From contig NC_015727.1 in the NCBI RefSeq assembly GCF_000219215.1, positions 496,001 through 560,000 of the forward strand: a DNA stretch of 64,000 nucleotides. Reading direction: 5' to 3'. This DNA is from Cupriavidus necator N-1. Lineage in GTDB: Bacteria > Pseudomonadota > Gammaproteobacteria > Burkholderiales > Burkholderiaceae. The notes below the pieces were generated by a model. It had not been told where the DNA came from and searched no databases. It saw only the letters and a list, made by a program, of their open reading frames with translations. A program made the translations under genes and the position numbers. Below are positions 22,640 through 51,364 of the stretch, piece after piece (position 1 is the first letter of the stretch; each line of letters opens with the position of its first letter).

Positions 22640-22641
22640 TC

Positions 22642-29822: not shown

Positions 29823-32108
29823 TCAACGAGGCAATCCCAGCCCACGCTGGGCAATCAGGTTGCGCTGGATCTCGGCCGTGCCACCACCGATGACGGTCAA
29901 AATCGCATAACGCAGCAACTGTTCGAACTTGCCCCGGGCGACCGCGCCTTCGGCGTCCTCGGACAAGGTTGCCCCGGTGCCGAGGATGTCGAGGGCCGTC
30001 TGGCCCAGACGCTCCATCAACTCGCCCATGTAGGCTTTGCTCATGGCCGCTTCATGAACGGGGACCCTGCCTTGCTCGGCCAGGGCGATGCTGTTCATAA
30101 ACAACTGCCGTCCGGCTTCCACCTCCGCCGCCAGCGCGCCGATGCGATCGCGGACCGCACCGTCATCGGCCAGCGCGCCGTCGAACACCGTCTTGCTACA
30201 GACGCAGCGAACCAGTCGTTCGAATTCCGAGCGGGCATTGGCGATGAAGCTTCCCATCATCATGCGCTCGGTTGCAAGCGCCGATGTCACGATCGTCCAG
30301 CCGTCATTGACCTTTCCGACCAGCGCGCTGGCAGGCACGCGGACATTGTCCAGGAACTCCTGGCAGAACGTGTGTCCGTACATCGCCATCGACGGTATGA
30401 CCGTGAGGCCAGGGCTGTTCATCGGGACGATGAAGATGCTGATGCCGGCGTGCGGCCGTGCCGCGTTCCGGTCGGTGCGCGCGGCCAGCCACATGTAGTC
30501 CGCCTTTTCGGCGGCTGTGGTCCAGATCTTCTGGCCGTTGATGACCCACTCGTCCCCGTCGCGCATGGCGGTAGTCTGCATGGATGCGAGGTCAGAGCCC
30601 GACCCAGGTTCGCTGTAGCCGAGGCAGAAGGTGATCTCACCGCGCGCGAGCCTGGGCAGGAACTCGGCCTTTTGCTCATCCGTGCCGAAAGCCATCAGCG
30701 CATGCGCCTGGATGTCGCCGCGGCCGCCCATGGGCGCGCCGGCTTGCTGGATCTCTTCCATGAAGGCAAGCTGCTCGTAGGGCGTGCGTCCCTGGCCACC
30801 ATACTCCCTGGGCCAGCTCATGGTGTTCCAGCCCTTGCGGCCCAACAGCCTGGTGAACTGCGTGTCGTAGCCCCATTCCTCATAGGCATGGTCATGTTCT
30901 CGCTTGCGAGAAGCGCTGGACCAGTTCTCCTTTAGCCAGGCCCGTACCTCATCGCGGAATGCATTGCCGGCCGGGCCGAGATCGTACTCGGGAAGGGTCG
31001 CGCCCTGGTCGAGCAGCGCCCGGGCGAGCTCCTCGCGCGCCTGCCGTACGCCGCCGTGGCGCGCCAGATCCGCATGCGTGCGCCGGAAGTGCCGCGGTGC
31101 CTCATGTTCCTCTGAGTAACCGATGGCGCCGAGAGTGTGATGCGTTTCGAGCGATACCTGACGCACCGCGGGCCCGGCGAAGGCGCGCGCAGCCGCGCCG
31201 AGGATCCGCCAGTTCTCCGAGCCGAGGTCATGCGTGCTGGCTGCGTTCTGGAGCATCAGCCGTGCGGCCTCCAGCGCCATCAGGCAGTTGGCCAGCTTGT
31301 GCTGTATCGCCTGGAAGCGACCGATTGGCTGCCCGAACTGCTGACGTTCCTTGGCGTAAGCCACAGCCATGTCGAACCCTTGCCGGGCGGCGCCGAGCGC
31401 GCGCGCCAGCAGCGCAAGCCCGCCGATCCGGCGCAGGTCCTCGGCCAGCCCGGGCGGGAGCTGCAACGCCGCCGCGGCCACGCGATCGAAACTCACCGTC
31501 GCCAAGGGCGGCACCGCCAGTCCCGAGGTTTCCGTCACGGTCAGGCCGGCCGCACCGCACGGCACGATGGCCAGTACCGGCCCCGGCTCTGCCAGCACGA
31601 GCAGGTGGGTGGCATGGCTCGCTGCCTCGACAAAGGCAGTTCGCCCGTGCAGCGTGCCCTTGGCGAACCGCACACAGCCTGCTTGCGCGTCACCGTCAAA
31701 GCTGCCGAAGGCGAAGCTCACGCTGGCATCGCCGCGATGCAGTGCGCCCAGCAGCGCTGCTGCCTCGCCTGGTGCAGGTTCCTCGGGCAGATGCGTCGAC
31801 AGGGCGAGATTGGCGAGTGCGGCGCCGATCAGCGGTGCCGGGCAGGCGACGCGGCCGAGTTCTTCCAGCGCCACAGCGATCTCGCGCAAGCCGCCTTCTT
31901 GCGGGTTGCTGCCCAGACTGGTCAGGCCTTGCTCGGCCAGCACTCGCCAGATCGAGGCCAGTGCCTGCTGGTCCGCCGCATGCTCCACGGCCCGCTCGGC
32001 AGGCCAGTGCCGCGCCAGCAGGCGGCGCAGGCTCTCCTGGAGCATCAGCCGCTCCTCGTCGCCAGGCAGCCTTGCCGAAGGGGGGAATTCCGTTTGTTCC
32101 TGGGCCAT
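29823..32108 (-). CDS. Fused double-domain acyl-CoA dehydrogenase (FadE34-like)
   Basis: 761 residues, two acyl-CoA dehydrogenase domains in one chain (about 15-370 and 380-761). The first keeps the C-terminal helix motif RQQFGQPIGRFQAIQHKLA (255-273) but has FAFGSFDGD where the FAD-loop motif should be. The second keeps YSEPGSGSD (498-506) and NGQKIWTT but has KTVFDG in place of RxQFG. This complementary loss is what heteromeric steroid-type dehydrogenases show, and FadE34 of mycobacteria is a natural fusion of this kind. The reaction is alpha,beta-dehydrogenation of a bulky acyl-CoA. A steroid or isoprenoid side chain is inferred. It shares an operon with TetR. Confidence 0.85.
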   Translation of the reverse strand: MAQEQTEFPPSARLPGDEERLMLQESLRRLLARHWPAERAVEHAADQQALASIWRVLAEQGLTSLGSNPQEGGLREIAVALEELGRVACPAPLIGAALANLALSTHLPEEPAPGEAAALLGALHRGDASVSFAFGSFDGDAQAGCVRFAKGTLHGRTAFVEAASHATHLLVLAEPGPVLAIVPCGAAGLTVTETSGLAVPPLATVSFDRVAAAALQLPPGLAEDLRRIGGLALLARALGAARQGFDMAVAYAKERQQFGQPIGRFQAIQHKLANCLMALEAARLMLQNAASTHDLGSENWRILGAAARAFAGPAVRQVSLETHHTLGAIGYSEEHEAPRHFRRTHADLARHGGVRQAREELARALLDQGATLPEYDLGPAGNAFRDEVRAWLKENWSSASRKREHDHAYEEWGYDTQFTRLLGRKGWNTMSWPREYGGQGRTPYEQLAFMEEIQQAGAPMGGRGDIQAHALMAFGTDEQKAEFLPRLARGEITFCLGYSEPGSGSDLASMQTTAMRDGDEWVINGQKIWTTAAEKADYMWLAARTDRNAARPHAGISIFIVPMNSPGLTVIPSMAMYGHTFCQEFLDNVRVPASALVGKVNDGWTIVTSALATERMMMGSFIANARSEFERLVRCVCSKTVFDGALADDGAVRDRIGALAAEVEAGRQLFMNSIALAEQGRVPVHEAAMSKAYMGELMERLGQTALDILGTGATLSEDAEGAVARGKFEQLLRYAILTVIGGGTAEIQRNLIAQRGLGLPR

Positions 32109-32230: not shown

Positions 32231-34921
32231 TCAGTCGATCAGGCCGCGCTTGCGCGCGGCGATTACCGCGTCATAACGGCTTGGCACCCCCAGTTTCTCG
32301 AACACGTTCTTCATGTTCCACTTCACCGTGTCCAGCGTGAGGTTGAGGGTCAGGGCGATGCGCTTGTTCGACATCGACTGCGCGGCCAGCCGCAGGATTT
32401 CGACCTCACGTGGCTTGAGCGCCGGGCCGTTGGCCTGCGCACCCGCATCGTCGGACTGCTGAAGCGGCACATGCGCCCCGATGCTGCGGCGCAGGACCTC
32501 GGCCAGATAGTCGCCGGCGCAGCCCGGGCCAAGCGTGAGCTGCAGTTGCAGCAGGGCCTGCCGCACACGCTCGCCTTCGTCGAGCAGCGTGCGAACCAGC
32601 CCCAGCCTCTGCGCTGACTCGACCGCAGCGTTCAGGCGATGCATGGCTTCGGTGGTTTCGCCCATTTCGGCGAGAGCGGTGCCCGACAGGAGGTCGGCCT
32701 GCACCACGCATTTCTGGCGCCCGAACGTAACGCCATAGCCGCGCAGCGTTTCGGCCCGCGCCATGGCATTCGTCCAGTCCATGCTCGCCAGCGCCAGCCG
32801 GGCGCCGGCCAGGGCTGCGATCGCCTCGATCTCGGCGAGAAAACCGGCGGCATTCCGGTGACGCACGGCCAGCTGGTCGAGTGCGGCCTGCAGCTGCCGG
32901 GCTTCGTCCTGGCGGTTCAGCTGGAGCTGCAAGCGGGCTTTGCCGGCAAGGACGTAGGCCAATGGCCGGTCCAGCCCCAGTTCGCGGCAGCGGGCTTCCT
33001 CCTCGTCCAGCGCGCGCAGTCCTTCTTCTGGGGAGGCCTGTGCCGCCATCAGGCGGCTGCGCACGATGATGGCCAGTGTCATCGGCTCAGGCGAGGAGAG
33101 GCGCAGCAAATCCAGGCGGTTGGCCAGCACCTCGTTGGCCTCGGCCAGCAAGTCGGCCTCGTAATAGGCGTTGGCGAGGAATGCCGCGCTATTGACGGCA
33201 GACACCGAACGCCGGCCATGCGCCGCCTCCGCGCGCGCCACCAGGGCGCTGCCGGTGCGGATGGCCTCGCGATTGTTGCCCGCCAGCAGGTGGCTGAGCA
33301 GCAGGGTGGATTCGGCCACCAGGGCCATCTCGTCCTGAAGCTCGGAGCGTGGCAGCCGCGCGATGTGCCCATGGAGCGCCCGCGCGTCCTCGTAGCGCCC
33401 GGCCGCGCAATAGGAAAAACTGAGCACTGCCAGATGTGCCTGGCGCAGGAAGCGGTCGCTTAGGCTCTCGAAGTCTGATGGCGCTACCAGGGCCAATGCG
33501 GCCTCGGTGTCGTCGCGCTGCAGCGCGATGCTGGCTCGCAGGTAGAGCGCGTGCAAGGCGTGCTCAGGCGCCAGTGTGCCGTGCGGCCGCTCCAGCCGCT
33601 CGAGCCAGCCCTGCGCGTCGCGCCAGCGGCCCGCGGCCACCAGCGCCCAGCAACCGAGGAGCAGCAGCCGGGGATGGCCCAGCAGCACCTCGGCCGGAAG
33701 TTCATCCGTCCAGTGTTGCAGCGTGCTGATGAAACTCATGCTGCGGATCGGCAGGTCAGCCCGCTCGACCAGGTGCACGGCCGCCTCGGTGTCGTTCGCG
33801 TGATAGGCGTGCCGCAGCGCTTCAATCAGCAGGCCCTGTTGCTCGAACCACTGGCTGGCCCTTGCATGGATCTCTTGTACCAATGCCGGATCGCGCTGCT
33901 GCAGCCGGTCCTGGAGGAAGCTGGCGAACAGGGGATGCAGGCGGTACCACGGCTGGGGGCTGTCCAACTCGACCGGCAGCAGGAAGAGGTTGTCGCGCTC
34001 GATCTGCTCAAGCAGCACCGGAGCCTGTGCATTGCCCGTGACGCGCCGCGCCAGTTCGGCATTGAAGCGGCGGCAGAACGAGAGCTTCTCGATGAAATCG
34101 GCCACGTCGGGCGCCAGATGGCGCACCACGTCTTCCGAGAGATAGCGCTGCAGATCGGTGCGGCGATGCAGCAACTGGGACAGCACGGCCCGGTTGGCCG
34201 GGCTGCGCTTGAGCCGGATGCAGATCATCTGCAGGCAGACCGGCCAGCCGTCGGTGATGTCGTGGATCAGGCGCGCATCGTCAGGCACCACTTCGCCGAG
34301 GTGCTTGGCCAGGAAGTCCTGTGTCTCCGCGAAATCGAAGGGCAGGTCGGGGAAGGCGATCTCCGCCAGCTCGCCGGTCAGGCGCTGGCGGTGGACGGCA
34401 AGCGGCGGGTGGGTTCGCGAGGCCAGGATCAGGTGCAGGGTCTCGGGCCCGTGGTCCACGAGGCCCTGGATCAGCGCGTGCGTGTCGCTGTCATCAACGT
34501 GATGGTAGTCGTCGATGAACAGGAACACGTCCTGGCCCTGCTGGCACACCGCGTCAACGATGGTGGCGACCAGTCCCGCAACTGGCAGGTCGGCCCGCAC
34601 CTCCGAGGCAAAAGCGGTCCCATCATCGACGGGCAGCCCTGCCTGCTGCAGTGCGCCGGTCAGGTAGGCGCGGAACTGGGGCAGCAGCCGTTCGTCCGGC
34701 GACAGGGACAGCCAGCAGACCAGTTCGCCGTCCTTCAGCAGCTGCTGGCGCCACTGGGCCAGCAAGGTCGTCTTGCCGAAGCCGGCGCTGCCGCACACCA
34801 GCGTCAGCCCGCTGTCGCGCGCATCCCGCAGTCGCGCCAGCAGTTTGGTCCGCAGCGTGGACTGCGGGCTGATGCGCGGTGGCGCGAACTTGGTGGGAAT
34901 AAGAAGGCGATCAGGGGCCAA
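32231..34921 (-). CDS. MalT-type LuxR-family transcriptional activator
   Basis: 896 residues. Domains in order: an N-terminal STAND/AAA ATPase with Walker A GSAGFGKTT at 44-52 and Walker B VFLFIDDYHH; a winged-helix linker; a long TPR-like helical sensor region (about 380-800); and a C-terminal LuxR HTH (LKPREVEILRLAAQSMSNKR, LTLDTVKWNMKNVFEKL). It is an ATP-dependent activator of the MalT/AlkS class, in which ligand binding drives oligomerisation. The start is TTG 34921 with AGGAGA 7 bases upstream. It diverges from the catabolic operon at 35208 across 286 bases, so it is the best candidate activator of that operon. Confidence 0.9.
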   Translation of the reverse strand: MAPDRLLIPTKFAPPRISPQSTLRTKLLARLRDARDSGLTLVCGSAGFGKTTLLAQWRQQLLKDGELVCWLSLSPDERLLPQFRAYLTGALQQAGLPVDDGTAFASEVRADLPVAGLVATIVDAVCQQGQDVFLFIDDYHHVDDSDTHALIQGLVDHGPETLHLILASRTHPPLAVHRQRLTGELAEIAFPDLPFDFAETQDFLAKHLGEVVPDDARLIHDITDGWPVCLQMICIRLKRSPANRAVLSQLLHRRTDLQRYLSEDVVRHLAPDVADFIEKLSFCRRFNAELARRVTGNAQAPVLLEQIERDNLFLLPVELDSPQPWYRLHPLFASFLQDRLQQRDPALVQEIHARASQWFEQQGLLIEALRHAYHANDTEAAVHLVERADLPIRSMSFISTLQHWTDELPAEVLLGHPRLLLLGCWALVAAGRWRDAQGWLERLERPHGTLAPEHALHALYLRASIALQRDDTEAALALVAPSDFESLSDRFLRQAHLAVLSFSYCAAGRYEDARALHGHIARLPRSELQDEMALVAESTLLLSHLLAGNNREAIRTGSALVARAEAAHGRRSVSAVNSAAFLANAYYEADLLAEANEVLANRLDLLRLSSPEPMTLAIIVRSRLMAAQASPEEGLRALDEEEARCRELGLDRPLAYVLAGKARLQLQLNRQDEARQLQAALDQLAVRHRNAAGFLAEIEAIAALAGARLALASMDWTNAMARAETLRGYGVTFGRQKCVVQADLLSGTALAEMGETTEAMHRLNAAVESAQRLGLVRTLLDEGERVRQALLQLQLTLGPGCAGDYLAEVLRRSIGAHVPLQQSDDAGAQANGPALKPREVEILRLAAQSMSNKRIALTLNLTLDTVKWNMKNVFEKLGVPSRYDAVIAARKRGLID

Positions 34922-35207
34922 GCGAGGGTCTCCTGCTGATATGCGAACGGCATCTTATCGGAAGTGCTCTGGCACGTCTAAGCGGCCGCCGCCGGGCGGG
35001 CCTCATGCGCGCGGCTCAGACGCCATGCCTGCCACCCGGTAAAACACCCGGCCAGCACCCGATAAGTGTGGTGCGCCCACCCGGCGCGCGACCCATCATT
35101 GAGCCATGCCCAGCGGACGGGCTGCGAGCGCCGGAGCCCGCCACTGGCCGGGCCGCCCGGGCGCGCAGCATTGCCGCCAGCTTGCCAGCCTGCAAGGAGA
35201 CAGTACA

Positions 35208-35993
35208 GTGCATTACGAAACCATTATCTACGAACGGCGAGGCCCGGTCGCGTGGATCACGCTGAATCGCCCGGCCGAACTCAATGCGGTGAACCTGCGC
35301 ATGCTTGAAGAGCTTCAGGATGCGCTCACCGCAGTGCAGGCCGATGCCGGCCAGGCCGTACTGGTGCTGACCGGGGCCGGGCGGGCGTTCTGCGCCGGCG
35401 CCGATCTCAAGGCGCTGCTCGCCGGCCTTGAAGTGGCTCCGGGCGAGCCCAATTTCGCCGACCGCACCCTTGCCACGCTTTCGCTGCTGCGCAACATGCC
35501 CAAACCGGTCATCGCGGCGATCAACGGGCTGACCGTCGCGGGCGGCCTGGAGCTGGCAATGTGCTGCGACATCCTGATCGGCGCGGCGGGCGCCAGGATC
35601 GGCGACGGCCATGCCAACTTCGGCGTGTTTCCTGGCGGCGGCGGCGCGGCGGTGCTGCCGCGCCGAGTCGGCCTCAGCCGCGCCAAGCAGCTGCTGTTTA
35701 CCGGCGACCTTGCCGACGCCGCCCGGATGCAGGCCTGGGGGCTGCTCAACGAGGTGGTCGCCGATGAGGAACTGCTTCCGGCCGTGGCGGCCATGGCCGA
35801 GCGGATGGCGGCCAAGAGCAGCCTTGTGCTGCGCCGCATGAAGGAGGTGGCAGGCCGGTCGGTCGACCTCTCGCAGGAGGCAGCACTGCGCGACGAGCTG
35901 TTGGCCTGCCAGCAGCACACGCGCTCCCATGACTTTCGCGAGGGTCTCGCTGCCTACAGCGAAAAGCGCCCGCCGGCGTTCCGTGGCATCTGA
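35208..35993 (+). CDS. Enoyl-CoA hydratase/isomerase family protein (crotonase fold)
   Basis: 261 residues from GTG 35208 (AAGGAGA 7 bases before). RPAELNAVNLRMLEEL and GAGRAFCAGADLKAL (57-69) give the first oxyanion-hole strand; INGLTVAGGLELAMCCD (106-121) the second. The active-site stretch reads IGDGHANFGVFPGGGG (131-146), so the Glu usual in PExxxG of hydratases is not there. The chemistry may be hydration with an altered base, isomerisation or hydrolysis. First gene of the six-gene plus-strand operon of sub-cluster A, 46 bases before the acyl-CoA synthetase. Confidence 0.86.
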   Translation: MHYETIIYERRGPVAWITLNRPAELNAVNLRMLEELQDALTAVQADAGQAVLVLTGAGRAFCAGADLKALLAGLEVAPGEPNFADRTLATLSLLRNMPKPVIAAINGLTVAGGLELAMCCDILIGAAGARIGDGHANFGVFPGGGGAAVLPRRVGLSRAKQLLFTGDLADAARMQAWGLLNEVVADEELLPAVAAMAERMAAKSSLVLRRMKEVAGRSVDLSQEAALRDELLACQQHTRSHDFREGLAAYSEKRPPAFRGI

Positions 35994-36039: not shown

Positions 36040-37611
36040 ATGAAGATCGATTTCTCGAGATGGTCGCTCGATGCCGCCTCGCGGTTCGGGCAGCGCGAAG
36101 CCCTGGTCAATGTCGAGCGCAACCGCCGCTATACGCACCTAGAACTGCACCGGCTTACCAACCGGATAGCCCGCATGATCAAGGAGCGGCTCAACCTTAT
36201 GTCGGGCGACATCTACCTGACCATTCTCGACAACGACAACATGAGCCTGCTGACCTTCTGCACGCTGGCCAAGGCGGACGTGAAGGCGGCATGGTGCAAC
36301 TTCCGGGACACCTTCGACGAGCACCTCTGGCAGATCGACTGGGTCGAGCCCAAGGTGGTATTCCTCGAAACCGCGCTGCTGGACAAGTACTACGACATGC
36401 TGCGCCAGCGCGGCATCCGCATCGTGTGCATGGATCCGCCCGCCACGCCGCGCGATGGCGTGTCCTGTTTCTGGGAACTGCTGGAGGGCGTGTCGGACAC
36501 GGAGCCGCATATCGAAATCGACGCGGACGAACCGCTGCTCCTGCGCTTCACCGGCGGCACCACTGGCAGGGGCAAGTGCTGCATGTACAGCCTGAACAAC
36601 TGGCTGGCCTTGCACCGCTACTTCTACTCGATGCCGGACGACATGTTCAGCTATGACGCGCGCCACCTGAGCATCACGCCGCTGAGCCACGGGTCAGCGG
36701 CGTACGCGACGACCCTTGCCTTCAAGGGCGGCTGCCATGTCACCATGAATGCGTCGGACCTCAGGCAGTTCTGCGCCAATATCCAGAACGAGCGGATCAC
36801 GTCCAGCCATCTCGTGCCGACCATCCTCTACCGCTTCCTGGAATTCGGCCTGCACGAGCAATTCGATCTGTCGAGCCTGCGCACGATCCTCTATGCCGCG
36901 GCGCCGATGAGTCCGGCCAAGCTCGCGCTGCTGCAGGAGAAGTTCGGCAATATCTTCATCCAGGCCTACGGCAGCAGCGAAGCGCTGGCACCGGTGGCCG
37001 TGCTGAGCAAGGCGGAGCACCTGCGCGCCCCTGGCGAGAGCAACCGCCCCCTGAGTTCCACCGGCATCGCGCTGCCGGAAACCGAAATCGTCGTGATGGA
37101 CGACGAAGGCCACGAGCTGCCGGCCGGCGAGACCGGCGAACTCTGGATCCGCGGGCCGGGCGTGATCAAGGGCTACTACAAGAATCCCGAGGCAACCGCC
37201 GCCGAATTCCAGGACGGCTTCTGGAAGTCCGGCGACCTGGGCTACATCGACGAAGACCGCTACGTGTACATCGTCGATCGCAAGAAGGACATGATCATCA
37301 GTGGCGGCTTCAACGTCTACGCCATCGAGGTGGAAGCGGCGCTCAACGCGCACCCCGCCGTACTGATGTCGGCGGCGGTGGGCGTGCCCCATGCCGAATG
37401 GGGCGAGTCCGTGCACGCCGAAGTGGTGCTCAAGGAAGGGCACTGCGCCGATGCCGCCGAGTTCATCGCCTTCTGCAAGGAGCGCATCGGCTACAAGGCG
37501 CCGAAGACAGTGACCATCGTCGACCAGCTCCCGATGACGGTGATCGGCAAGGTGTTGCGCAGGCAAGTGCGCGACAAATACTGGACGGACCAGCAGCGCA
37601 AGGTGCACTAG
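36040..37611 (+). CDS. Acyl-CoA synthetase (AMP-forming), FadD-like, sub-cluster A
   Basis: 523 residues of the ANL superfamily. The P-loop reads FTGGTTGRGKCC (170-181), departing from the usual TGGTTGxPKG. The A5-like motif is QAYGSSEA, A7 is KSGDLGY, A8 is YIVDRKKDMIISGGFNVY, and Lys504 (VIGKVLRR) is the adenylation lysine. It activates a carboxylic acid to its CoA thioester for the pathway. Start at 36040 has AAAGGAGA upstream. The unusual P-loop with Arg-Gly-Lys-Cys may alter ATP handling or mark a subfamily; catalysis is otherwise expected. Operon spacing of 22 bases to the next gene. Confidence 0.9.
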   Translation: MKIDFSRWSLDAASRFGQREALVNVERNRRYTHLELHRLTNRIARMIKERLNLMSGDIYLTILDNDNMSLLTFCTLAKADVKAAWCNFRDTFDEHLWQIDWVEPKVVFLETALLDKYYDMLRQRGIRIVCMDPPATPRDGVSCFWELLEGVSDTEPHIEIDADEPLLLRFTGGTTGRGKCCMYSLNNWLALHRYFYSMPDDMFSYDARHLSITPLSHGSAAYATTLAFKGGCHVTMNASDLRQFCANIQNERITSSHLVPTILYRFLEFGLHEQFDLSSLRTILYAAAPMSPAKLALLQEKFGNIFIQAYGSSEALAPVAVLSKAEHLRAPGESNRPLSSTGIALPETEIVVMDDEGHELPAGETGELWIRGPGVIKGYYKNPEATAAEFQDGFWKSGDLGYIDEDRYVYIVDRKKDMIISGGFNVYAIEVEAALNAHPAVLMSAAVGVPHAEWGESVHAEVVLKEGHCADAAEFIAFCKERIGYKAPKTVTIVDQLPMTVIGKVLRRQVRDKYWTDQQRKVH

Positions 37612-37633: not shown

Positions 37634-38809
37634 ATGAGCATGTCAAACCGTGTCGCCATCGTCTCCATGGCGCAAGTCAACTACAGCGAGAAGCGCGCGT
37701 ACTCGCCCGAGGAACTGGCCTACCAAGCCATCCGTCCCGTGCTGCAGGAGACCGGGCTGCGCTTCCTGCCGGCCTACGAGAAGGGCGGGATTGATGCCAG
37801 CCTGATCTGTCACGAGCACTCGCGCATCGCGCGGCCGTTCTCGGCATCGCTGGTGGTCGACGTTGCCGGTGCCAACCTGCGTCCCGATGAAAAGATCGAT
37901 CAGGACGGCGCCGTCGGCGTGCTCGAAGCGGCCTGGCAGATTGCCTCCGGCGAGTTTGAGACGGTGCTGGTGGTAGCCGTGTGCCACGACTCCACCAGCA
38001 ACAGCGCGGCCAATGCGATCGAGAACAAGGTCTTCGACCCGTTCTTCTGCCGACCGCTTGGCCTCGACAACGTGCAGGCCGCCGGGCTGCAGGCCAACCG
38101 CTACATGGAGAAGTACGGCATCACACCCGGGCAATGCGCGGCGGTGTCGGTGAAGAACCTGCGCCATGCCAAGGACAACGCATGGGCGCTGCGCGCGGGG
38201 GACTATAGCGTCGCCGACGTGCTCGGCTCGAAGGCACTGTCAGATCCGATCACGGCGCTGCAGACGCGTGCGTTCGGCGACAGCGCCATCGTCATGCTGC
38301 TGGCCAGCGAGGAAAGGGCGCGGCAGCTGACCAGCAAGCCGGTGTGGATCAAGGGCCAGGCCAACTGCTGCGACGGCTACAACCTGGGGGACCGCGACCT
38401 TGCGGACTCGGAGGTGCTGAAGATCGCGGCGAACAAGGCCTATCGCATGGCCGGCATCAGCGATCCGCGCAAGGAGATCGATCTGCTCGAGGTGACAGAT
38501 GAATTCTCCTACCAGGAGCTGATGGCCTATGAGGGGTTGGGCCTGTGCGAAGCCGGGCAGGGCGGCCGTTGGCTGGAGTCGGGCACGAGCAGCCGCGGCG
38601 GGCATCAGCCGGTCAACCTGTCCGGCGGCGCGCTGTCTGGTTGCTCCCATACCACCATCGGCATGGGCCGCATTGCCGAGATTGTGCTGCAGCTACGCGG
38701 CGAGGCGGGCGCGCGCCAGGTGGACGGCGCCCGCACCGGGCTTGCCCATCTGGCTTCGGGGCCGTGCGGGCAACTGCAGCAGGTCATGGTCCTGGGCACC
38801 ACGCCTTGA
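37634..38809 (+). CDS. Thiolase-like protein lacking the catalytic Cys, subunit 1
   Basis: 391 residues with the thiolase fold. Where thiolases have the nucleophile in NxxCASG, this protein reads KIDQDGAVGVLEA (87-99), so the Cys is absent. The HDCF position reads EVTDEFSY and the C-terminal GHPxGATG loop is replaced by SGGALSGCSHTTIGMG. It therefore cannot do standard thiolysis through a Cys acyl-enzyme. Cys-less relatives (Ltp2) act as retro-aldolases with DUF35 partners in steroid side-chain degradation. Here it is followed by a second such protein and two DUF35 genes; a heteromeric complex is inferred. Confidence 0.82.
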   Translation: MSMSNRVAIVSMAQVNYSEKRAYSPEELAYQAIRPVLQETGLRFLPAYEKGGIDASLICHEHSRIARPFSASLVVDVAGANLRPDEKIDQDGAVGVLEAAWQIASGEFETVLVVAVCHDSTSNSAANAIENKVFDPFFCRPLGLDNVQAAGLQANRYMEKYGITPGQCAAVSVKNLRHAKDNAWALRAGDYSVADVLGSKALSDPITALQTRAFGDSAIVMLLASEERARQLTSKPVWIKGQANCCDGYNLGDRDLADSEVLKIAANKAYRMAGISDPRKEIDLLEVTDEFSYQELMAYEGLGLCEAGQGGRWLESGTSSRGGHQPVNLSGGALSGCSHTTIGMGRIAEIVLQLRGEAGARQVDGARTGLAHLASGPCGQLQQVMVLGTTP

Positions 38810-38853
38810 TGCTGGCCTGGTGACGCCAGGCGGCGCCGCAACGGAGAAACAGT

Positions 38854-40053
38854 ATGAATCGCAGAGTGGCAATCGTCGGCTTCGGCCAGACGGAAATGAT
38901 GGCGCGCAGTCCGCTGACCAAGGCGGAGCTGGCCAACCAGGCGGTGCGCCGGGCGCTGGAAGATGCGCAGATCACGATGAAGCAGGTCGAAGAGATCGTG
39001 CTTGCCGACATCGACTACGTGTCGGGCACGGCGGAGTCGGAGATGGAGCTGGCCGACTGGGTGGGGCACTGCCGCAAGCCCGTGGTCAAGATCGAGACCG
39101 GCGGCACCGTAGGCGGGTCGGCGGCGCTGTCGGCGGTGCATCACATCGCAGCCGGCGCCTGTGACGTTGCGCTGGTTTCGGCAACGGCGAAGTTCGTGGG
39201 CCCGCCCCCGGGCACGCTGCCGCGCGGGCCGTTCCTGCAGGCGGCGATCAACTCAGGCCTGCACGCGCTCACCGAGAAATGGTGCAGCGTGGGCGCCGTG
39301 GGTACCTTCTCCCTGATGGCAAGCTCCTATGTGAAGCTTTCCGGCTGCACCGAAGAAGCCGTTGCCATCGCCCGGGTCAAGGCCGCCAACAACGCCTTGA
39401 AGAACCCCTATGCGCATCTGCGCGAGCACCTGACCGTGGAGGACGTGCTCAAGTCACCCATGCTGACGGCACCGATGCGCCAACTCCACATGTGCCCGAT
39501 CACCGAAGGCTCGGCGGCGATGATCTTTGCCAGCGAGGACGTGGCGCACATGCTCACCAAAAAGCCGGTGTGGGTGAAGGACATGGTCACCATCCACTCG
39601 GCCCAGCACTGGGCTGCCCTGCAGGACTTCATCGCGCCCAGGGAACGTTGCGTGCTGCCGAGCCTGGCCAAGGCGTGCGAGGTGCTCTACAAGCGCAATG
39701 GCATCACCCATCCCGCCAAGGAGCTCGACGTGATCGAGATGTACGAGCCCTGCACCTGGGCCGAACTGGTGTGGATGGAAACCATGGGCCTGTGCGAACC
39801 GAACCAGGCCTGGAAGCTGATGGGCACCGGCGCCACCGATATCGACGGCGAACTGCCCATCAACCCTTCCGGTGGGGTCACCTGCACCAACCCCGGCGTT
39901 CCCTCGACCCTGCTGCGTTACGGCGAGCTGGCCCTGCAGATCCGCGGCGATGCCGGTGAGCACCAGGTGCCGCGCGATGTCAGGCTGGGCCTGGCGACCG
40001 GCTTCGGCGGCACCGGCTGGACGCCGCTGATGCTGCTGTCCAAGGACAAGTAA
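38854..40053 (+). CDS. Thiolase-like protein lacking the catalytic Cys, subunit 2 (Ltp2-like)
   Basis: 399 residues. RVAIVGFGQTEMMAR is the SCP-x/lipid-transfer-thiolase N-terminus. The nucleophile position reads ETGGTVGGSAAL (81-92), again without Cys. The HDCF box is VIEMYEPCTWAEL, with Tyr at the His position; my memory of Ltp2-type aldolases is that Tyr residues take over catalysis. The C-terminal loop PSGGVTCTNPGVPSTLLRYG lacks the GHP motif. It follows subunit 1 by 44 bases and precedes the DUF35 pair. Proposed role: C-C cleavage of a beta-hydroxyacyl-CoA or related intermediate. Confidence 0.84.
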   Translation: MNRRVAIVGFGQTEMMARSPLTKAELANQAVRRALEDAQITMKQVEEIVLADIDYVSGTAESEMELADWVGHCRKPVVKIETGGTVGGSAALSAVHHIAAGACDVALVSATAKFVGPPPGTLPRGPFLQAAINSGLHALTEKWCSVGAVGTFSLMASSYVKLSGCTEEAVAIARVKAANNALKNPYAHLREHLTVEDVLKSPMLTAPMRQLHMCPITEGSAAMIFASEDVAHMLTKKPVWVKDMVTIHSAQHWAALQDFIAPRERCVLPSLAKACEVLYKRNGITHPAKELDVIEMYEPCTWAELVWMETMGLCEPNQAWKLMGTGATDIDGELPINPSGGVTCTNPGVPSTLLRYGELALQIRGDAGEHQVPRDVRLGLATGFGGTGWTPLMLLSKDK

Positions 40054-40065
40054 GGAGGAGTGGCA

Positions 40066-40590
40066 ATGAGCACCGAGCAACCCGAAACCCTTCCCGTGCC
40101 GCCGACGCGCCTGCGCACGCCCTGCTTCATGGAATACCCGCTGGGCCTGTTCAACGGCAGGTTCTCGCGCGAAATGCGCGACCACGGCCGCCTCATGGGC
40201 ATGGTCTGCCGCCATTGCGGCTTCACCATGCTGCCGCCGCAGGCCGTATGCAGCGTGTGCCATGGCGAGAACTTCGACGACCCACAATGGGTGGAAATGG
40301 GGCTCGAGGCCACCGTGGCCGGCTTCATGTCATTCAACATGCCGTTCATCGATACCAACGACCTGTCGGTGCAGTCGAGCGCCTACCCCGTCGGCGTGCT
40401 GATGGTCGATTCGCCCGGCCGCACCGCCGGCTTCCTGTGGCACTACATCGGCGAAACCGACCTGGGCAAGGTGCACAACGGCATGCGTGTCCGTGCCGTG
40501 TTCCGGCCCGAGGCCGAGCGCAAGGGGTTGATGACTGACATCCTCTACTGGGAGCCGGTGCAGGACCCGGCCACAACACAAGGAGACTAG
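40066..40590 (+). CDS. DUF35 Zn-ribbon/OB-fold protein 1
   Basis: 174 residues. A rubredoxin-like zinc ribbon with Cys48, Cys51, Cys62 and Cys65 (MVCRHCGFTMLPPQAVCSVC) precedes an OB-fold domain (GLEATVAGFMSFNMPF, YPVGVLMVDSPGRTAGFLWH, KVHNGMRVRAVFRP). DUF35 proteins bind acyl-CoA and partner thiolase-fold enzymes (Ltp2-ChsH2, BbsAB, archaeal HMG-CoA synthase complexes). AAGGAGG lies 7 bases before ATG 40066; a GTG at 40060 is an alternative. Partner choice between the two adjacent thiolase-like proteins cannot be told from sequence. Confidence 0.86.
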   Translation: MSTEQPETLPVPPTRLRTPCFMEYPLGLFNGRFSREMRDHGRLMGMVCRHCGFTMLPPQAVCSVCHGENFDDPQWVEMGLEATVAGFMSFNMPFIDTNDLSVQSSAYPVGVLMVDSPGRTAGFLWHYIGETDLGKVHNGMRVRAVFRPEAERKGLMTDILYWEPVQDPATTQGD

Positions 40591-40594
40591 GATC

Positions 40595-41071
40595 ATGTAT
40601 CCCGCTTACCTGGAAGACGCGGACCCGGCCATCCTGCGCCAGCCGGTGCTGTATGCCGACATCAACTACGACGTCGGCGAGACCAACGGCCGCTTCTTCG
40701 CCGCACTGCGCGACCACGGCAAGATCACCGCGACCCATTGCGCCGCCTGTGCGCGCACCTACGTGCCGCCGCGGCTTTCCTGCCCCGAGTGCTTTGCCGA
40801 ACTGCACGACTGGGTCGACGTCAGCGACACCGGAACACTGGTGTCCTACACCATTGTGCGCGAGCCCGGGATGCTGCAACCGGTGGCCCGCCCCTATGTC
40901 CTGGGGCTGATCCGCCTCGATGGGGCCGACACCGCGCTGGCGCACTACCTCGGCGAGATCGATCCCGCGGCCGTGAAGCCCGGAATGCGCGTGCGCGCAG
41001 TGTTGGCCGAAGAGCGCGTGGGAAATATCTTGGACATCCGCTATTTCAAACCGGTCGGCGATAGCGCCTGA
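40595..41071 (+). CDS. DUF35 Zn-ribbon/OB-fold protein 2
   Basis: 158 residues. Zinc ribbon Cys49, Cys52, Cys63, Cys66 (THCAACARTYVPPRLSCPEC) followed by an OB fold (VDVSDTGTLVSYTIVREPGM, ARPYVLGLIRLDGADTALAH, PGMRVRAVLAEERVG). It begins 4 bases after DUF35 protein 1, with AAGGAGA in between, and is the last gene of the operon. Having two DUF35 proteins for two thiolase-like proteins suggests either two 1:1 complexes or one four-component assembly. Confidence 0.86.
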   Translation: MYPAYLEDADPAILRQPVLYADINYDVGETNGRFFAALRDHGKITATHCAACARTYVPPRLSCPECFAELHDWVDVSDTGTLVSYTIVREPGMLQPVARPYVLGLIRLDGADTALAHYLGEIDPAAVKPGMRVRAVLAEERVGNILDIRYFKPVGDSA

Positions 41072-41570: not shown

Positions 41571-43127
41571 ATGGCGATCATCGACTTTTTCGACCGGGGC
41601 TGGCAGATCGACCCGACTGCAGCAGCGTACGTCATGGACGACGAAGTCTTCACCTTCGACCAGGTGGGTCAGCTTTCATGCCGCATCGCAAACGCATTGC
41701 TGGCCGCAGGCATGGGACGCGGCAAGATTGGCGCGGTACTGGCGGGGAACCATCCCACGGCATGGACCTGTACGCTGGGCCTGTGGCGTGCAGGCATGGC
41801 ATGGATGCCGGTCAACCCGCGTGGCTCTCTGGAAGATAACCAGCAACTGCTGGACGGCTTCGATTGCGAGGTGCTGTTCTTCCAGAAGGCGTTCGCGCCC
41901 ACGGTCGAGGCAATGCGGCCAAAGCTGGCTAAGGTCAAGCTCTATGTCTGCATCGAAGAGCCCGTGCCGGGTGCGCACGGGCTGCCCGATTGGGTTGCTG
42001 GCCAACCGGCGACCAAGCCGCACATCACATACGAGCCGCACGACACGATTGCCGTAATGCCGACCGGCGGCACGACGGGGTTGCCCAAAGGGGTGATGAA
42101 CACCCATCGAAGCTTCCAGGCCTTCTGTGCGCAGTTCATGATCGCCTGCAGCTACCGCGCAGACGAGAAGATCGTGAACCTCGCTGCGGCGCCGATGACG
42201 CATACAGCGGGCGTGCTTTCGCTGCCGTGCACCGCGCGCGGCGGCACGGTGGTGGTGCTGACCAAGCCGGATCCCGCAGCTCTGGTTGATGTCATCGAGA
42301 AGCATCGCGTCACTGAGTTCTTCCTGCCGCCCACGGTGATCTACCGGCTGCTCGACACGCCTGGCATCGAACAGCGCGACTACACATCGCTGAAATACTT
42401 CATCTGCGGTGCGGCGCCCATGTCGGCAGAGAAGCTGCGCCGCGCCATTGCGGTATTCGGGCCCGTGATGATGGAAGCCTATGGACAAACCGAAGCGCCT
42501 GGCTCAATCGCCATCAAGCGACCCGAAGAGAATTTCATCGATGGCGAAATTGCCGACGATGCGCGGCTGCTCTCGTGCGGACGGCCGAGCCCGCTGGTGC
42601 ACGTAGCGATCATGAACGAGCGCAATGAGCCGCTCGCAACGGGTGAGACCGGCGAGATCTGCGTGCGTGGCGATCTGGTGATGAAGGGATACTACAGCGC
42701 GCCCGAGAAGACGGCGGAAGCCATCATCGACGGCTGGCTGCACACCGGGGATGTCGGTCATATCGACGGCAACGGCTACCTGCGCATCACCGATCGCAAG
42801 AAAGACATGGTGATCACGGGCGGCTTCAACGTCTATCCCAGCGAAGTCGAGCAGGTGATCTGGGGCCACCCTGCGGTGCAGGACTGCGCGGTGATCGGCG
42901 TGCCGGATGCGACCTGGGGCGAGGCTGTCAAGGCCGTGGTCGAACTGAACCCCGGGATGCAGGTGAGCGGCGACGAGCTGATCGCGTTGTGCAAGGAAAG
43001 GCTCGGCAGCGTGAAGGCGCCAAAGTCGATCGACTTTGTCGAATCCCTGCCGCGCAGCCCCAATGGGAAGGTCCTGAAGAAAGATCTGCGCACACCCTAT
43101 TGGGCTGCCCAGAACCGCAGCATCTGA
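41571..43127 (+). CDS. Acyl-CoA synthetase (AMP-forming), sub-cluster B
   Basis: 518 residues of the ANL family. Canonical P-loop MPTGGTTGLPKGVM (163-176), MEAYGQTEAPG, LHTGDVGHID, ITDRKKDMVITGGFNVYPSE, and adenylation Lys500 in SPNGKVLKKDLR. It resembles FadD3/long-chain and cyclohexanecarboxylate-type ligases. It leads sub-cluster B and duplicates the activity coded at 36040-37611 but with a normal P-loop, so the two may act on different intermediates of one pathway. 19 bases separate it from the thiolase gene. Confidence 0.92.
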   Translation: MAIIDFFDRGWQIDPTAAAYVMDDEVFTFDQVGQLSCRIANALLAAGMGRGKIGAVLAGNHPTAWTCTLGLWRAGMAWMPVNPRGSLEDNQQLLDGFDCEVLFFQKAFAPTVEAMRPKLAKVKLYVCIEEPVPGAHGLPDWVAGQPATKPHITYEPHDTIAVMPTGGTTGLPKGVMNTHRSFQAFCAQFMIACSYRADEKIVNLAAAPMTHTAGVLSLPCTARGGTVVVLTKPDPAALVDVIEKHRVTEFFLPPTVIYRLLDTPGIEQRDYTSLKYFICGAAPMSAEKLRRAIAVFGPVMMEAYGQTEAPGSIAIKRPEENFIDGEIADDARLLSCGRPSPLVHVAIMNERNEPLATGETGEICVRGDLVMKGYYSAPEKTAEAIIDGWLHTGDVGHIDGNGYLRITDRKKDMVITGGFNVYPSEVEQVIWGHPAVQDCAVIGVPDATWGEAVKAVVELNPGMQVSGDELIALCKERLGSVKAPKSIDFVESLPRSPNGKVLKKDLRTPYWAAQNRSI

Positions 43128-43146: not shown

Positions 43147-44343
43147 ATGAGCAGCAATGTCGTGATCGCCGGCGTCGGGATGGTGCCGTTCAAGCGCCCC
43201 GGGCAGAGCGAATCGTATGACCTGATGGCGGAGCAGGCTGTGCGCGCGGCGCTGGCCGACGCCGGGATCGAATATGGCCTGGTGGAGCAGGCTTTTGCGA
43301 GCTTCGTCTATGGCGACTCTTGCTCGGGCGAGCGCGCACTCTACCGCGTTGGCATGACCGGCATCCCGATTACCAATGTCAACAACAACTGTGCTTCCGG
43401 ATCTTCGGCGCTGTACCTGGCGCGGCAGGCTGTGCTGGCGGGCGCGGCCGAATGTGCGCTCGCAGTTGGTTTCGAGGAGATGCAGCCGGGCGCGCTGGAC
43501 AGGGTTTTCCCGGCCTATGCCGACCCGTTAGAGCGCCACCGCGAGAGCGTTGCAGCGGCAATGGGCTTTGGGCAAGCGGAACGCGCGCTGCCGCCCGCAC
43601 TGATGATGTTCGGCTCGCAACTCGAATGGACAGCGCGTGAGTTGCAGATTCCGGACGAGGTGTTCGCACGCATTGCCGTCAAGGCCCGCGCACACGCCAA
43701 GCACAACCCCTATGCGATCTTCCGCGATCCGCTGACGGTTGAGGAAGTCCTCTCGGCACCCACCGTCTGGGGACGTCTGCGCAAGCTCTACGCTTGCCCG
43801 CCGAGCTGCGGCGCTGCTGCCGTGATCGTATGCAGTGACAAGTTCGCGCGTCGGCATGGATTGCGCTTGGACGTGGTGATCCTAGCGCATGAGATCGGCA
43901 GTGATATTGCGTCTGATCTCGACCCGCCCAACGTGCCGGATGCGCTGAGCCGCGGTGCCGCACGGCGCACGGCCGACCGCGCCTACGCCATGGCCGGTGT
44001 GGAACCCCTGGACATCGACGTGGCAGAAGTGCACGACTGCTTTGTCAGCAACGAGCTGCTCACCTATGCATGCGTGGGTTTTTGCGACGAAGAAGACCTT
44101 GAGCGGTTTGTTATTGAAGGCCGCAACACCTACGGCGGCCAAGTGGTGGTGTGTCCGTCGGGCGGTTTGCTTTCCAAAGGGCACCCTCTCGGTGCGACGG
44201 GGCTGGCCCAGATCACGGAGCTGACGATGCAACTGCGCGGCACCGCAGGCCAGCGGCAGGTCGAGGGCGCCCGGCTGGCATTGCAGCACAACGGCGGATT
44301 GGGCACTGCGGTGTCGGTCGCCATTTTGCAGCGGCGCACATGA
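43147..44343 (+). CDS. SCP-x-type thiolase (lipid-transfer protein family), canonical
   Basis: 398 residues. All catalytic elements are present: Cys82 in NNNCASGSSALYLAR, the His of AEVHDCFVSNELL, and GGLLSKGHPLGATGLAQ near residue 345. SCP-x thiolases cleave branched-chain and steroid-side-chain beta-ketoacyl-CoAs to propionyl- or acetyl-CoA. It contrasts with the two Cys-less thiolase-like proteins of sub-cluster A. AAGGAAA precedes ATG 43147. Substrate is inferred from the family. Confidence 0.92.
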   Translation: MSSNVVIAGVGMVPFKRPGQSESYDLMAEQAVRAALADAGIEYGLVEQAFASFVYGDSCSGERALYRVGMTGIPITNVNNNCASGSSALYLARQAVLAGAAECALAVGFEEMQPGALDRVFPAYADPLERHRESVAAAMGFGQAERALPPALMMFGSQLEWTARELQIPDEVFARIAVKARAHAKHNPYAIFRDPLTVEEVLSAPTVWGRLRKLYACPPSCGAAAVIVCSDKFARRHGLRLDVVILAHEIGSDIASDLDPPNVPDALSRGAARRTADRAYAMAGVEPLDIDVAEVHDCFVSNELLTYACVGFCDEEDLERFVIEGRNTYGGQVVVCPSGGLLSKGHPLGATGLAQITELTMQLRGTAGQRQVEGARLALQHNGGLGTAVSVAILQRRT

Positions 44344-44457
44344 GCTAAAAGCCGCATTTCACGCTCATTCTTTTTCCCGATGGAAGCCGCGCAGGAGCTG
44401 TCGTGCCTATCGCAGGGAATCTCATTCCAAAACGACATTTCGCTTGAGTAGAGAGCC

Positions 44458-45445: not shown

Positions 45446-45573
45446 ATACACCTGAATACTGCCTTGAAGGGCCTGACAAGCCATGGGTTGTAAGCGTGGT
45501 GTTGACCTGGCACCGGGCTGTGCCGCATCAATAGCAAACCGAAAAGCGTGGAAGAACACGCGGAGGAGACATC

Positions 45574-49681: not shown

Positions 49682-49699
49682 CTACCGGGAAGTACTGCC

Positions 49700-50479
49700 A
49701 TGCCCCAACCTGCCCTGCTCGAGAAGCACGGTGACGTTGCAACCATCGTGTTGAACCGCCCTGAGCACGCCAATGCCATTGACCCCGATTCGACACGCGC
49801 GTTGATCCAGTGCATTGATGCGGTGGCCGCCGAGCCATCCGCGCGCGTTGTTGTGTTGCGGGCCACAGGGCGGATGTTCTGCGCGGGCGGCAGCATCGAT
49901 TTCTTTGCCAAAGGCGGTGCTGATTTTCCAGCCGTTCTCGACGAGTTGCTTGGTCCGCTGCACGCCGCTTTACACAAGCTGGCCACGCTGCCGGTGCCTG
50001 TCATCAGCGCCGTGAATGGGCCGGTGGTCGGCGGCGGCATCGGCTTGGCGCTGTGCGCGGACATCGCGCTTGCTGCTGAATCGATGAAGCTGCGCGGCGG
50101 CTACTCAGCCATCGGACTCACACCGGATGCATGCTCTTCATGGTTCCTCACCCGTCGCGTCGGGCCAATGCGGGCCAAGCAGATTTTCTTCACCAACGAC
50201 TCGCTCTCGGCCCAGCAATGCCTGGCCATGGGCATTGTGAGTGAGGTGGTGCCGGATGCCGAGCTCGCCGCGCGAACGACCGCGCTTGCCGAGGCACTGG
50301 CGCGCGGCGCCACAGGCGCGCTCGGGCGCATCAAGCAACTGGTGGACGGGGCGCACGAGCGGTCGCTGGAAGCACAACTCGACCTGGAGCATCGCCTGAT
50401 GGTCGAGTCTGCGGCCAGCGCCGAGGCTCGCGAAGGGATCGCCGCCTTTCTTTCCAAGCGAGTACCGCGGTTTTCATGA
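49700..50479 (+). CDS. Enoyl-CoA isomerase/hydratase (PaaG-like crotonase)
   Basis: 259 residues. RPEHANAIDPDSTRAL, ATGRMFCAGGSIDFF and VNGPVVGGGIGLALCAD are crotonase motifs. The active-site loop is GGYSAIGLTPDACSSWFLTR with Asp143 and no Glu of the hydratase type. This TPD pattern is shared with PaaG-type isomerases and 4-chlorobenzoyl-CoA dehalogenases, so double-bond isomerisation is likelier than hydration. It follows the Mo-hydroxylase by 18 bases and precedes the SDR. Confidence 0.88.
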   Translation: MPQPALLEKHGDVATIVLNRPEHANAIDPDSTRALIQCIDAVAAEPSARVVVLRATGRMFCAGGSIDFFAKGGADFPAVLDELLGPLHAALHKLATLPVPVISAVNGPVVGGGIGLALCADIALAAESMKLRGGYSAIGLTPDACSSWFLTRRVGPMRAKQIFFTNDSLSAQQCLAMGIVSEVVPDAELAARTTALAEALARGATGALGRIKQLVDGAHERSLEAQLDLEHRLMVESAASAEAREGIAAFLSKRVPRFS

Positions 50480-50539: not shown

Positions 50540-51364
50540 ATGCAGATCAATCTCGATTTCAAGGGCCGTCACGCCTTCGTGTTTGGCGGCACCACGGGCA
50601 TCAACTTTGGCATTGCCCAGGCTTTCGCACGGCAGGGTGCCAGCGTGACGGTAGCCAGCCGCAAGCGCGAGAACGTTGAGGCCGCCAGCGAAGTGCTCGC
50701 CAAGTTCGGTGGCCCGGTGCATGGCGTCTGCGCCGACGTGCGTGACTTCGATGCGGTGGGGCAGGCATTCGCCGAATCCGTCGAACGCTTCGGCCCAGTC
50801 GATGTGCTGGTTTCCGGTGCCGCTGGCAACTTTCTGTGCGAAGCGAAGGACATGTCGTCGAATGGCTTTCGGGTAGTCGTCGATATCGACCTGGTCGGTA
50901 CCTTCCACGTGCTGCGACAAGCCTATGACCACCTGCGCAAGCCCGGTGCATCGGTGATTAACATCACAGCGCCGCAGTCCTTCGTGCCCATGCGCTATCA
51001 GGCGCACGCCAGCGCAGCCAAGGCGGGGGTTGATCAACTGACGCGCGTGCTCGCGCTGGAGTGGGGCGGTGACGGCATCCGCATCAACTCGATTTCGCCG
51101 GGGCCGATCGAGGACACAGAGGGCTTCCGCCGATTGATGGCACCGACAGAGCAGGACCGTGCAGCCGCACAGGCGCATGTGCCCATGCATCGGTTCGGCG
51201 CTGTGGACGACATTGCGAACCTCGCGCTTTTCCTGGGCTCGCCCTACGCGGGATACATCTCTGGCTCGCTCATTCCTTGTGATGGCGGTGGCGCGCTGGA
51301 AAGCGTGAAGACGGCGCTCGAACTGGCAGGCCGCTCGGCGTCGGCTGCCTCAAAGAGCGCCTGA
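50540..51364 (+). CDS. SDR of the 2,4-dienoyl-CoA reductase (DECR) type
   Basis: 274 residues. FGGTTGINFGIAQAFARQGA is the cofactor motif. GAAGNFLCEAKDMSSNGF and VVDIDLVGTF are DECR hallmarks, and the catalytic region is HASAAKAGVDQLTR without the YxxxK Tyr, as in peroxisomal DECR2. It reduces 2,4-dienoyl-CoA with NADPH, removing double bonds that block beta-oxidation. Together with the PaaG-like isomerase it would process unsaturated or ring-derived acyl-CoAs. Last gene of sub-cluster B; CAAGGAG precedes the ATG. Confidence 0.88.
   Translation: MQINLDFKGRHAFVFGGTTGINFGIAQAFARQGASVTVASRKRENVEAASEVLAKFGGPVHGVCADVRDFDAVGQAFAESVERFGPVDVLVSGAAGNFLCEAKDMSSNGFRVVVDIDLVGTFHVLRQAYDHLRKPGASVINITAPQSFVPMRYQAHASAAKAGVDQLTRVLALEWGGDGIRINSISPGPIEDTEGFRRLMAPTEQDRAAAQAHVPMHRFGAVDDIANLALFLGSPYAGYISGSLIPCDGGGALESVKTALELAGRSASAASKSA

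Follow-up and report, generated by a model that had tools for sequence, protein, structure and literature searches.

Which reaction could be carried out by two adjacent thiolase-fold proteins that both lack the nucleophilic Cys of thiolases, when their genes are followed by those of two different DUF35 proteins? The question is raised by four genes, here called T1, T2, D1 and D2, in a 64,000-nucleotide window of the 8.48 Mb genome of Cupriavidus necator N-1 (contig NC_015727.1, positions 496,001 to 560,000; all coordinates below are positions in this window), where they lie on the same strand (+) with gaps of 4 to 44 bases between genes (Table 1). The answer that seems probable to us, with substantial room for doubt, is that T1-T2-D1-D2 is a distant proteobacterial module of the ltp4-ltp3-Rv3521 type, in which T2 would be a retro-aldol catalyst, T1 its pseudo-enzyme partner and D1 and D2 their caps.

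The four consecutive open reading frames can be read directly from the sequence and are backed by Pfam. Thiolase_C_1 (cut-off 28) is matched by both T1 (115 bits) and T2 (86 bits), Thiolase_N (cut-off 26.4) is reached by T2 (28.8) and missed by T1 (19.8), and both D1 and D2 match zf-ChsH2 and OB_ChsH2_C above cut-off. In an 11-row alignment, the segments IDQDGAVG of T1 and IETGGTVG of T2 stand without gaps against VNNNCASG of T3, a further thiolase of the same cluster, so that Gly92 (T1) and Gly84 (T2) fall at the position of Cys82 (T3). A 56-row alignment shifts T1 and places its Asp89 in the nucleophile column; neither alignment has a Cys there. At the position of the HDCF motif, T1 has TDEF and T2 has YEPC, and at that of the GHP loop T1 has GCS followed by H and T2 has TNP. 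T3 carries all three features (Cys82, HDCF and GHP) and T1 and T2 none of them. The original prediction, made from this DNA alone, had described two thiolase-like proteins without nucleophilic Cys or C-terminal GHP loop, followed by two distinct DUF35 proteins, and these points are borne out; it had also given VTDEF and MYEPC as the replacements of HDCF, of which TDEF and YEPC stand, the V and M being the residue before the motif.

Comparable gene pairs are found in other organisms. Twelve regions outside the cluster were chosen by hand from tblastn matches on plasmid records (four for T1, from among the best 20 of 550, and eight for T2, from the best 40 of 528), and in 11 of them a gene that we call X lies directly upstream of a T2-like gene, Y, with a single or tandem DUF35 alongside; since the regions were hand-picked, this is not an unbiased rate. 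The pairs come from Actinobacteria, haloarchaea and betaproteobacteria, namely Rhodococcus (L029, L053, L055, L060), Tsukamurella (L054), Streptomyces clavuligerus (L031), Nocardia (L057), Nonomuraea (L058), Haloterrigena (L030), Natronosalvus (L056) and Simplicispira (L059); the twelfth region, from Achromobacter (L032), has no pair and carries a single thiolase with DUF35. X is annotated as hypothetical in L029, L053, L055 and L060; all six X proteins that were scanned (L029, L030, L031, L053, L054 and L059) match thiolase-type NCBIfam models, two of them above cut-off and that of L029 weakly, and the remaining X proteins are close kin of the scanned ones by tree or BLAST. The nucleophile column of the 56-row alignment holds Gly in all 11 Y rows; among the 11 X rows it holds Cys in L029 alone, those of L030 and L056 being gapped. 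With the Y rows that do not belong to its own lineage, T2 shares 31-36% identity. One upstream gene with two DUF35 halves is present in L031, L054, L057 and L058, which are the four loci whose X is nearest to that of Tsukamurella, and the other seven regions have a single DUF35 beside the pair. Of nine annotated loci, seven have a hydratase gene close to the pair. L030, L056 and L059 each have one more thiolase-fold gene in the vicinity, accompanied by its own OB-fold gene; on the Simplicispira suum plasmid (L059, 5084-9319) X, Y and DUF35 are followed by another thiolase-fold gene of the Gly/YDHF kind with its own DUF35, a three-plus-two set.

Phylogenetic analysis with IQ-TREE (53 rows, with the cluster copies from L023 and L025 and not those of L024 and L028, and excluding the X protein of L029, L041 and an unrelated open reading frame of L057) places X, Y, T1 and T2 in one clade starred by the tool (100/99), separate from T3 and 23 other thiolase-fold rows. 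Within this clade T1 groups with X (91/89) and T2 with Y (93/94), the two being sister groups. Forcing T1 and T2 into a clade of their own costs 30 log units and is rejected (p-AU 0.006), which rules out a recent local duplication. T1 and T2 thus stem from an old split between X and Y.

A search for the four-gene set in other neighbourhoods found it conserved in four further bacteria: Variovorax sp. 679, V. boronicumulans, Pseudomonas japonica and C. necator C39 (plasmid p1). Their proteins are 81-98.5% identical to those of the window for T1 and T2 and 69-95% for D1 and D2, and a 23-kb query from the window is 87.5% identical at the DNA level, over 61% of its length, to a C. necator plasmid record. 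The ratio of nonsynonymous to synonymous substitution rates (dN/dS, Nei-Gojobori) never exceeds 0.27, either in the 24 comparisons of T1, T2, D1 and D2 among four organisms or in the 30 that include T3; with dN so far below dS, the four genes are under purifying selection rather than in decay, and reading any of them as a pseudogene is ruled out. Beyond these relatives the set is rare. The best T1 match elsewhere in 60 genomes of its own genus (E 6.6e-40) is at the level of a paralog; at E<=1e-50, T1 has matches in a single genome among 398 of the phylum, and at E<=1e-80 the same holds for T2 among 249 of the family, the genome in both cases being that of the window itself. A Y profile at E<=1e-70 picks out 3 of the 398 phylum genomes, the other two scoring 247.5 and 239.5 bits, about as much as T1 itself (246.9). 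Three of the T1 relatives came from a contig pattern scan with short back-translated patterns, which distant orthologs can escape.

If the pair is old and maintained, which of its chains would act? Invariant positions were counted over 13 X and 13 Y rows from the same loci (L029 omitted). The Y rows have 31 invariant columns, 11 of them polar (Thr82, Tyr159, Asn184, His188, Cys214, Glu295, Glu309, Asn337, Ser339, Asn346 and Gln362 in T2 numbering), and the X rows have 9, of which one (Glu286) is polar. Asp immediately precedes the nucleophile position in 10 of 13 X rows. This suggests that the X chain would be a pseudo-enzyme and the Y chain the catalyst, a division into one active and one degenerate chain that is not made for this pair in the parts of the literature surveyed. 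Both T1 and T2 might instead be catalytic, in succession or on two substrates, with T1 acting through Asp89/Asp91, Glu290 and the region of His339. DQDG, TDEF and SHTT are indeed fully kept in the four aligned T1 sequences, the dN/dS of T1 is similar to that of T2, and the lineage has a second DUF35 protein; across the 13 X rows, however, Glu286, which lies before the motif, is the sole invariant residue capable of catalysis, and we regard two active chains as rather unlikely. Far less probable still is ordinary thiolase activity through a displaced Cys, a finding that would have overturned the original prediction. Away from the nucleophile position, T1 has nine Cys and T2 ten; Cys214 is the only Cys of T2 that is invariant over the Y rows (14 of 14), and Cys300 lies inside YEPC. 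Cys214, however, aligns with a Cys of T3, an ordinary thiolase with a separate nucleophile, and is therefore not a displaced one, Cys300 gives way to Phe or Tyr in the 11 Y rows that do not belong to the lineage of T2, and X has no invariant Cys at all. A displaced catalytic Cys is thus unsupported by the alignments and by the per-column conservation of either chain; Cys214 may still have some role.

Both D1 and D2 have a complete CxxC...CxxC ribbon. No complete ribbon is present in the single DUF35 proteins of L053, L055 and L059, in any of the four tandem N-halves or in the C-halves from L054 and L057. Outside its lineage D2 comes nearest, at 42-45% identity, to the DUF35 proteins of L053 and L055 and to the N-halves from L054 and L057. 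D1 is divergent, sharing 34% identity with D2 and no more than about 30% with the others, and its only match among plasmid records is the copy of the cluster in C. necator. In BLAST comparisons the best partner of D2 is the N-half in L054, L057 and L031 and the C-half in L058; that of D1 is the C-half, though both halves are nearly equal in L031. One DUF35 cap per thiolase chain would be a reasonable guess.

The X/Y pairs can be connected to a known system. X and Y of Tsukamurella (L054) pass the cut-offs of the NCBIfam models PRK07937 'lipid-transfer protein' (593 bits, X) and PRK08313 (734 bits, Y). In Nocardia (L076), the tandem DUF35, X and Y genes are immediately preceded by a gene on the other strand that belongs to the F420_Rv3520c family (508 bits, cut-off 335). 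PRK07850 'steroid 3-ketoacyl-CoA thiolase' (712 bits, cut-off 515) lies about 3 kb downstream and a PRK07798 ligase (828 bits, cut-off 543) some 6 kb upstream; of ten neighbours scanned there, five have no model at E<=1e-80. The tables of PMC6429209 list Rv3520c as an F420-dependent oxidoreductase, followed by Rv3521, Rv3522 (ltp4) and Rv3523 (ltp3). By synteny and family, the Nocardia module is identified as this Rv3520c-Rv3521-ltp4-ltp3 neighbourhood. Like it, the set in the window lies in a catabolic acyl-CoA setting and has two DUF35 domains, with X and Y side by side and both coding for thiolase-fold proteins that lack the nucleophilic Cys; unlike it, the DUF35 domains are encoded by two separate genes with complete ribbons, and no sterol cluster was seen beside the block. 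Statements that ltp3 and ltp4 are aldol lyases cite Wilbrink 2012. They occur in the available portions of PMC6593523, PMC8708139, PMC7807495 and PMC6273163 and concern C24-branched sterol side chains.

Given this connection, T1 and T2 might be a true Ltp3/Ltp4 steroid aldolase brought into Proteobacteria and used on sterol or bile-acid side chains. Their place within the X/Y clade agrees with such an origin, as do the FadL-type porin in the window, the lipases near its relatives and the top model of the hydratase ECH, EchA19 (212 bits, cut-off 400), which the accessible text of PMC8708139 describes as a sterol side-chain hydratase. Against it, however, T1 and T2 miss the Ltp3/Ltp4-type cut-offs, no steroid model reaches its cut-off among the models listed for 10 scanned proteins (no more than the best 25 for four of them), and no steroid-ring gene was seen among the Pfam-scanned proteins of the window, the whole genome not having been searched for such genes; a steroid substrate thus appears improbable.

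Other systems combine the same folds in different ways. As described in the parts of PMC12329534 available, Ltp2 and Sal are thiolase-fold retro-aldolases with DUF35 partners whose base is the Tyr of YDHF or YDCY, and CtSal has Gly in place of the nucleophilic Cys, uses the motif Tyr and needs Cys304. Ltp2-ChsH2 and Sal-Shy resemble the set in fold, in the missing nucleophile, in the motif Tyr (T2) and in the DUF35 partner; they differ in that the Sal dimer is flanked by two copies of one DUF35 protein and in that their DUF35 protein also has a MaoC hydratase domain. BbsAB likewise has a thiolase-fold chain and a DUF35 chain, and BbsB is the best PDB sequence match of T1, but there is one thiolase-fold gene in that system and its NCBIfam cut-offs are missed (BbsB: T1 123 and T2 109 of 750 bits; BbsA: D2 24 of 250). 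SCP2/SCP-x thiolases are like T1 and T2 in fold and general alignment and unlike them in their Cys, HDCF and GHP, all present in T3. PhlABC and the archaeal complex of HMG-CoA synthase (HMGCS), thiolase and DUF35 do pair two different thiolase-superfamily chains with DUF35, PhlC alone being active in PhlABC, and since both are among the fold-search matches of T1 and T2, T1-T2-D1-D2 could similarly form C-C bonds or transfer acyl groups. The acting chains of those complexes, however, keep the Cys that T1 and T2 lack (Cys88 of PhlC, Cys85 of the archaeal thiolase, Cys114 of HMGCS); their second chain is HMGCS-like, whereas T1 and T2 both match Thiolase_C_1; and PhlA and PhlC are each homodimeric. 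The neighbourhood in the window is moreover degradative (ligases, acyl-CoA dehydrogenase, hydratases, short-chain dehydrogenase, thiolase), and a bond-forming or acyl-transferring role therefore seems unlikely. From the precedents listed in the original prediction the PhlA/PhlC/PhlB complex was left out, and the HMGCS complex that it names contains two different thiolase-superfamily chains. Its proposal of a heteromeric C-C lyase of new type survives in part: the genes are best read as coding for a heteromeric lyase independent of Cys, and the set of two plus two exists and is conserved, but 'new type' is unsupported, because pairs with single or tandem DUF35 occur in 11 of the 12 picked regions with the same X/Y split, and because ltp3/ltp4 provide a precedent.

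Several observations weigh against the assignment of T1-T2-D1-D2 to an Ltp4/Ltp3/Rv3521-type module with a single active chain. The NCBIfam cut-offs are missed by both proteins (T2 298 of 514 bits for PRK08313; T1 130 of 419 for PRK07937 and 203 of 516 for PRK06066). In the tree, the X and Y nodes fall below the level starred by the tool, which also warns that long branches meet. The X protein of L029 (304 aa, a weak match to thiolase models) has a Cys at the nucleophile column. X diverges faster than Y overall (mean identity 33% against 40%), so that its few invariant positions partly reflect general divergence. YEPC of T2 and TDEF of T1 both depart from YD[HC][FY], and T2 has Pro at the place of Sal's essential Cys304, with a Cys one place later. 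Tyr297 of T2 is Phe in 5 of 14 Y rows, which have a Tyr three places on; Tyr297 is thus no universal base, and the catalytic set of Y probably differs from that of Sal. The DUF35 tree does not settle whether D1 and D2 correspond to the halves of a tandem protein. In the portion of PMC10398937 available, deletion of ltp3 or ltp4 singly in Mycolicibacterium neoaurum WIII left the formation of 4-HBC from phytosterols going, atf1 being needed there. Finally, the AlphaFold2 models (11-row alignment; mean pLDDT 56.8 for T1 and 62.1 for T2) are poor and unfit for active-site geometry, so that only their fold match was used: Foldseek places SCP2-thiolases, BbsB, PhlC and archaeal thiolases at the top and Ltp2 and Sal lower, which says of T1 and T2 no more than that their predicted fold is that of a thiolase. 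When Y, X and the tandem DUF35 of Tsukamurella were searched against PDB sequences, only distant chains were found.

How might such a module work? T1 and T2 would form a heteromer, and the ligase, acyl-CoA dehydrogenase and hydratase of the cluster would make a beta-hydroxyacyl-CoA to be bound by T2. T2 would then split the bond between C2 and C3 in a retro-aldol reaction that involves no acyl-enzyme: a base, for which Tyr297 of YEPC is a candidate by analogy with Ltp2 and Sal, would deprotonate the beta-hydroxyl, and a shorter acyl-CoA and an aldehyde or ketone would leave. T1, its catalytic residues lost, may serve as a structural or substrate-binding half, D1 and D2 would cap the two halves, as DUF35 proteins do in Ltp2-ChsH2 and Sal-Shy, and T3 would perform ordinary thiolysis of the remaining chain. 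A retro-aldol cut is the natural route when a branch at the beta carbon prevents its oxidation to a ketone. The genes and their conservation, the X/Y split, the lack of the Cys, the poorly conserved X and the catabolic surroundings are observed; we infer the assembly of the complex, the retro-aldol reaction, the acting residue and the substrate, which would probably be a branched and hydrophobic acid. Hints of a hydrophobic, ester-derived acid come from a secretory lipase (PF03583) encoded two genes past the short-chain dehydrogenase in C. necator C39, from a lectin/lipase-like protein encoded upstream of the P. japonica block and from the FadL-type porin of the window. The relatives of LIG2 in Azoarcus, on a P. 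aeruginosa plasmid and in Tistrella lie in generic acyl-CoA clusters and gave no clue to the substrate, nor did the papers listed by a search on P. japonica.

More speculatively, and with doubt outweighing confidence, T1-T2-D1-D2 might be a CoA-dependent lyase of four chains. An active and a dead thiolase fold, each with a DUF35 cap, would go back to an ancient duplication shared by bacteria and archaea, and the enzyme would cut non-steroid beta-hydroxy-beta-branched acyl-CoAs to ketones, giving prokaryotes a general way around branches at which beta-oxidation stops. Its residue set, [YF]xP[FYC] with Asn346, His188 and Cys214 (invariant in 14 Y rows), would be unlike that of the compared aldolases. 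The paired module spans bacteria and archaea, yet solved structures give only distant sequence matches. With its four separate genes, the version in the window opens three questions to direct tests: does an ltp3/ltp4-type pair form a single heteromeric aldolase, which of the chains is active, and what is the role of the second DUF35? Enzymes of this kind also merit attention as biocatalysts for C-C bonds.

The surrounding genes are listed in Table 1.

Table 1. Genes of the T1-T2-D1-D2 cluster and its neighbours (window positions)
Feature	Description	Position	Strand	Basis
T1	391 aa; X-type thiolase-fold protein, no nucleophilic Cys; proposed non-catalytic partner	37634..38809	+	Open reading frame, Pfam, alignments, tree
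T2	399 aa; thiolase-fold protein of Y type with Gly84 in place of the Cys and the motif YEPC; proposed to catalyse retro-aldol cleavage	38854..40053	+	Open reading frame, Pfam, alignments, tree
D1	176 aa; DUF35, Zn ribbon CRHC...CSVC and OB fold	40060..40590	+	Open reading frame, Pfam
D2	158 aa; DUF35, Zn ribbon CAAC...CPEC and OB fold; nearer than D1 to DUF35 of other X/Y modules	40595..41071	+	Open reading frame, Pfam
ECH	Enoyl-CoA hydratase family, conserved neighbour; top NCBIfam model EchA19	35106..35993	+	
LIG1	AMP-binding acyl-CoA ligase	36040..37611	+	
LIG2	AMP-binding acyl-CoA ligase, conserved neighbour	41571..43127	+	
T3	398 aa; Cys-bearing SCP2/SCP-x-type thiolase; PRK08256 574 bits, cut-off 436	43147..44343	+	
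ECH2	Second enoyl-CoA hydratase family protein	49700..50479	+	
SDR	Short-chain dehydrogenase, conserved neighbour	50540..51364	+	
ACAD2	Fused double acyl-CoA dehydrogenase; kept in C. necator C39 and both Variovorax loci	29823..32108	-	
MalT-like	LuxR-family regulator; kept in C. necator C39 and both Variovorax loci	32231..34921	-	

T3, the third and Cys-bearing thiolase of the cluster, was absent from the original prediction. LIG1 is present in C. necator C39, and no ortholog was seen in the two Variovorax loci; in P. japonica it is a remnant (L025 7673-7904) of which only 53 N-terminal and 23 C-terminal residues are left, matched by tblastn with four bases between them, and therefore seems dispensable there. 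ECH2 immediately follows T3 in all four relatives, while in the window about 5.4 kb of extra DNA (44334-49698) lies between the two, containing pieces of a GMC oxidoreductase, a porin of the FadL/TodX type and a 2Fe-2S/molybdopterin oxidoreductase pair. The pair could oxidise the aldehyde product of the proposed lyase; the relatives are without the insertion that carries it. The GMC oxidoreductase gene (44458-45386) is apparently broken, consisting of a 259-aa open reading frame without Pfam match and a 106-aa piece in another frame that matches GMC_oxred_C. A second molybdopterin cofactor-binding oxidoreductase (22567-24885) is distinct from the pair at 46518-49681. The segment between D2 and LIG2 (41088-41555), missing in C. 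necator C39, has no repeats, and no copies of it were found elsewhere in the window or in the compared loci outside its own genome. Downstream of the short-chain dehydrogenase, transposase-type genes (ISL3 family, HTH_Tnp_1 and an rve integrase core; 51718-57898) fit spread by mobile DNA. Over all contigs, the genome has 20 places above the Thiolase_C_1 cut-off, T1, T2 and T3 included (four of them only when in-frame neighbours are joined), and six of its thiolase-fold places combine Gly in place of Cys with YDAF, YDSF or YAPC motifs, like aldolases of the Sal/Ltp2 type.

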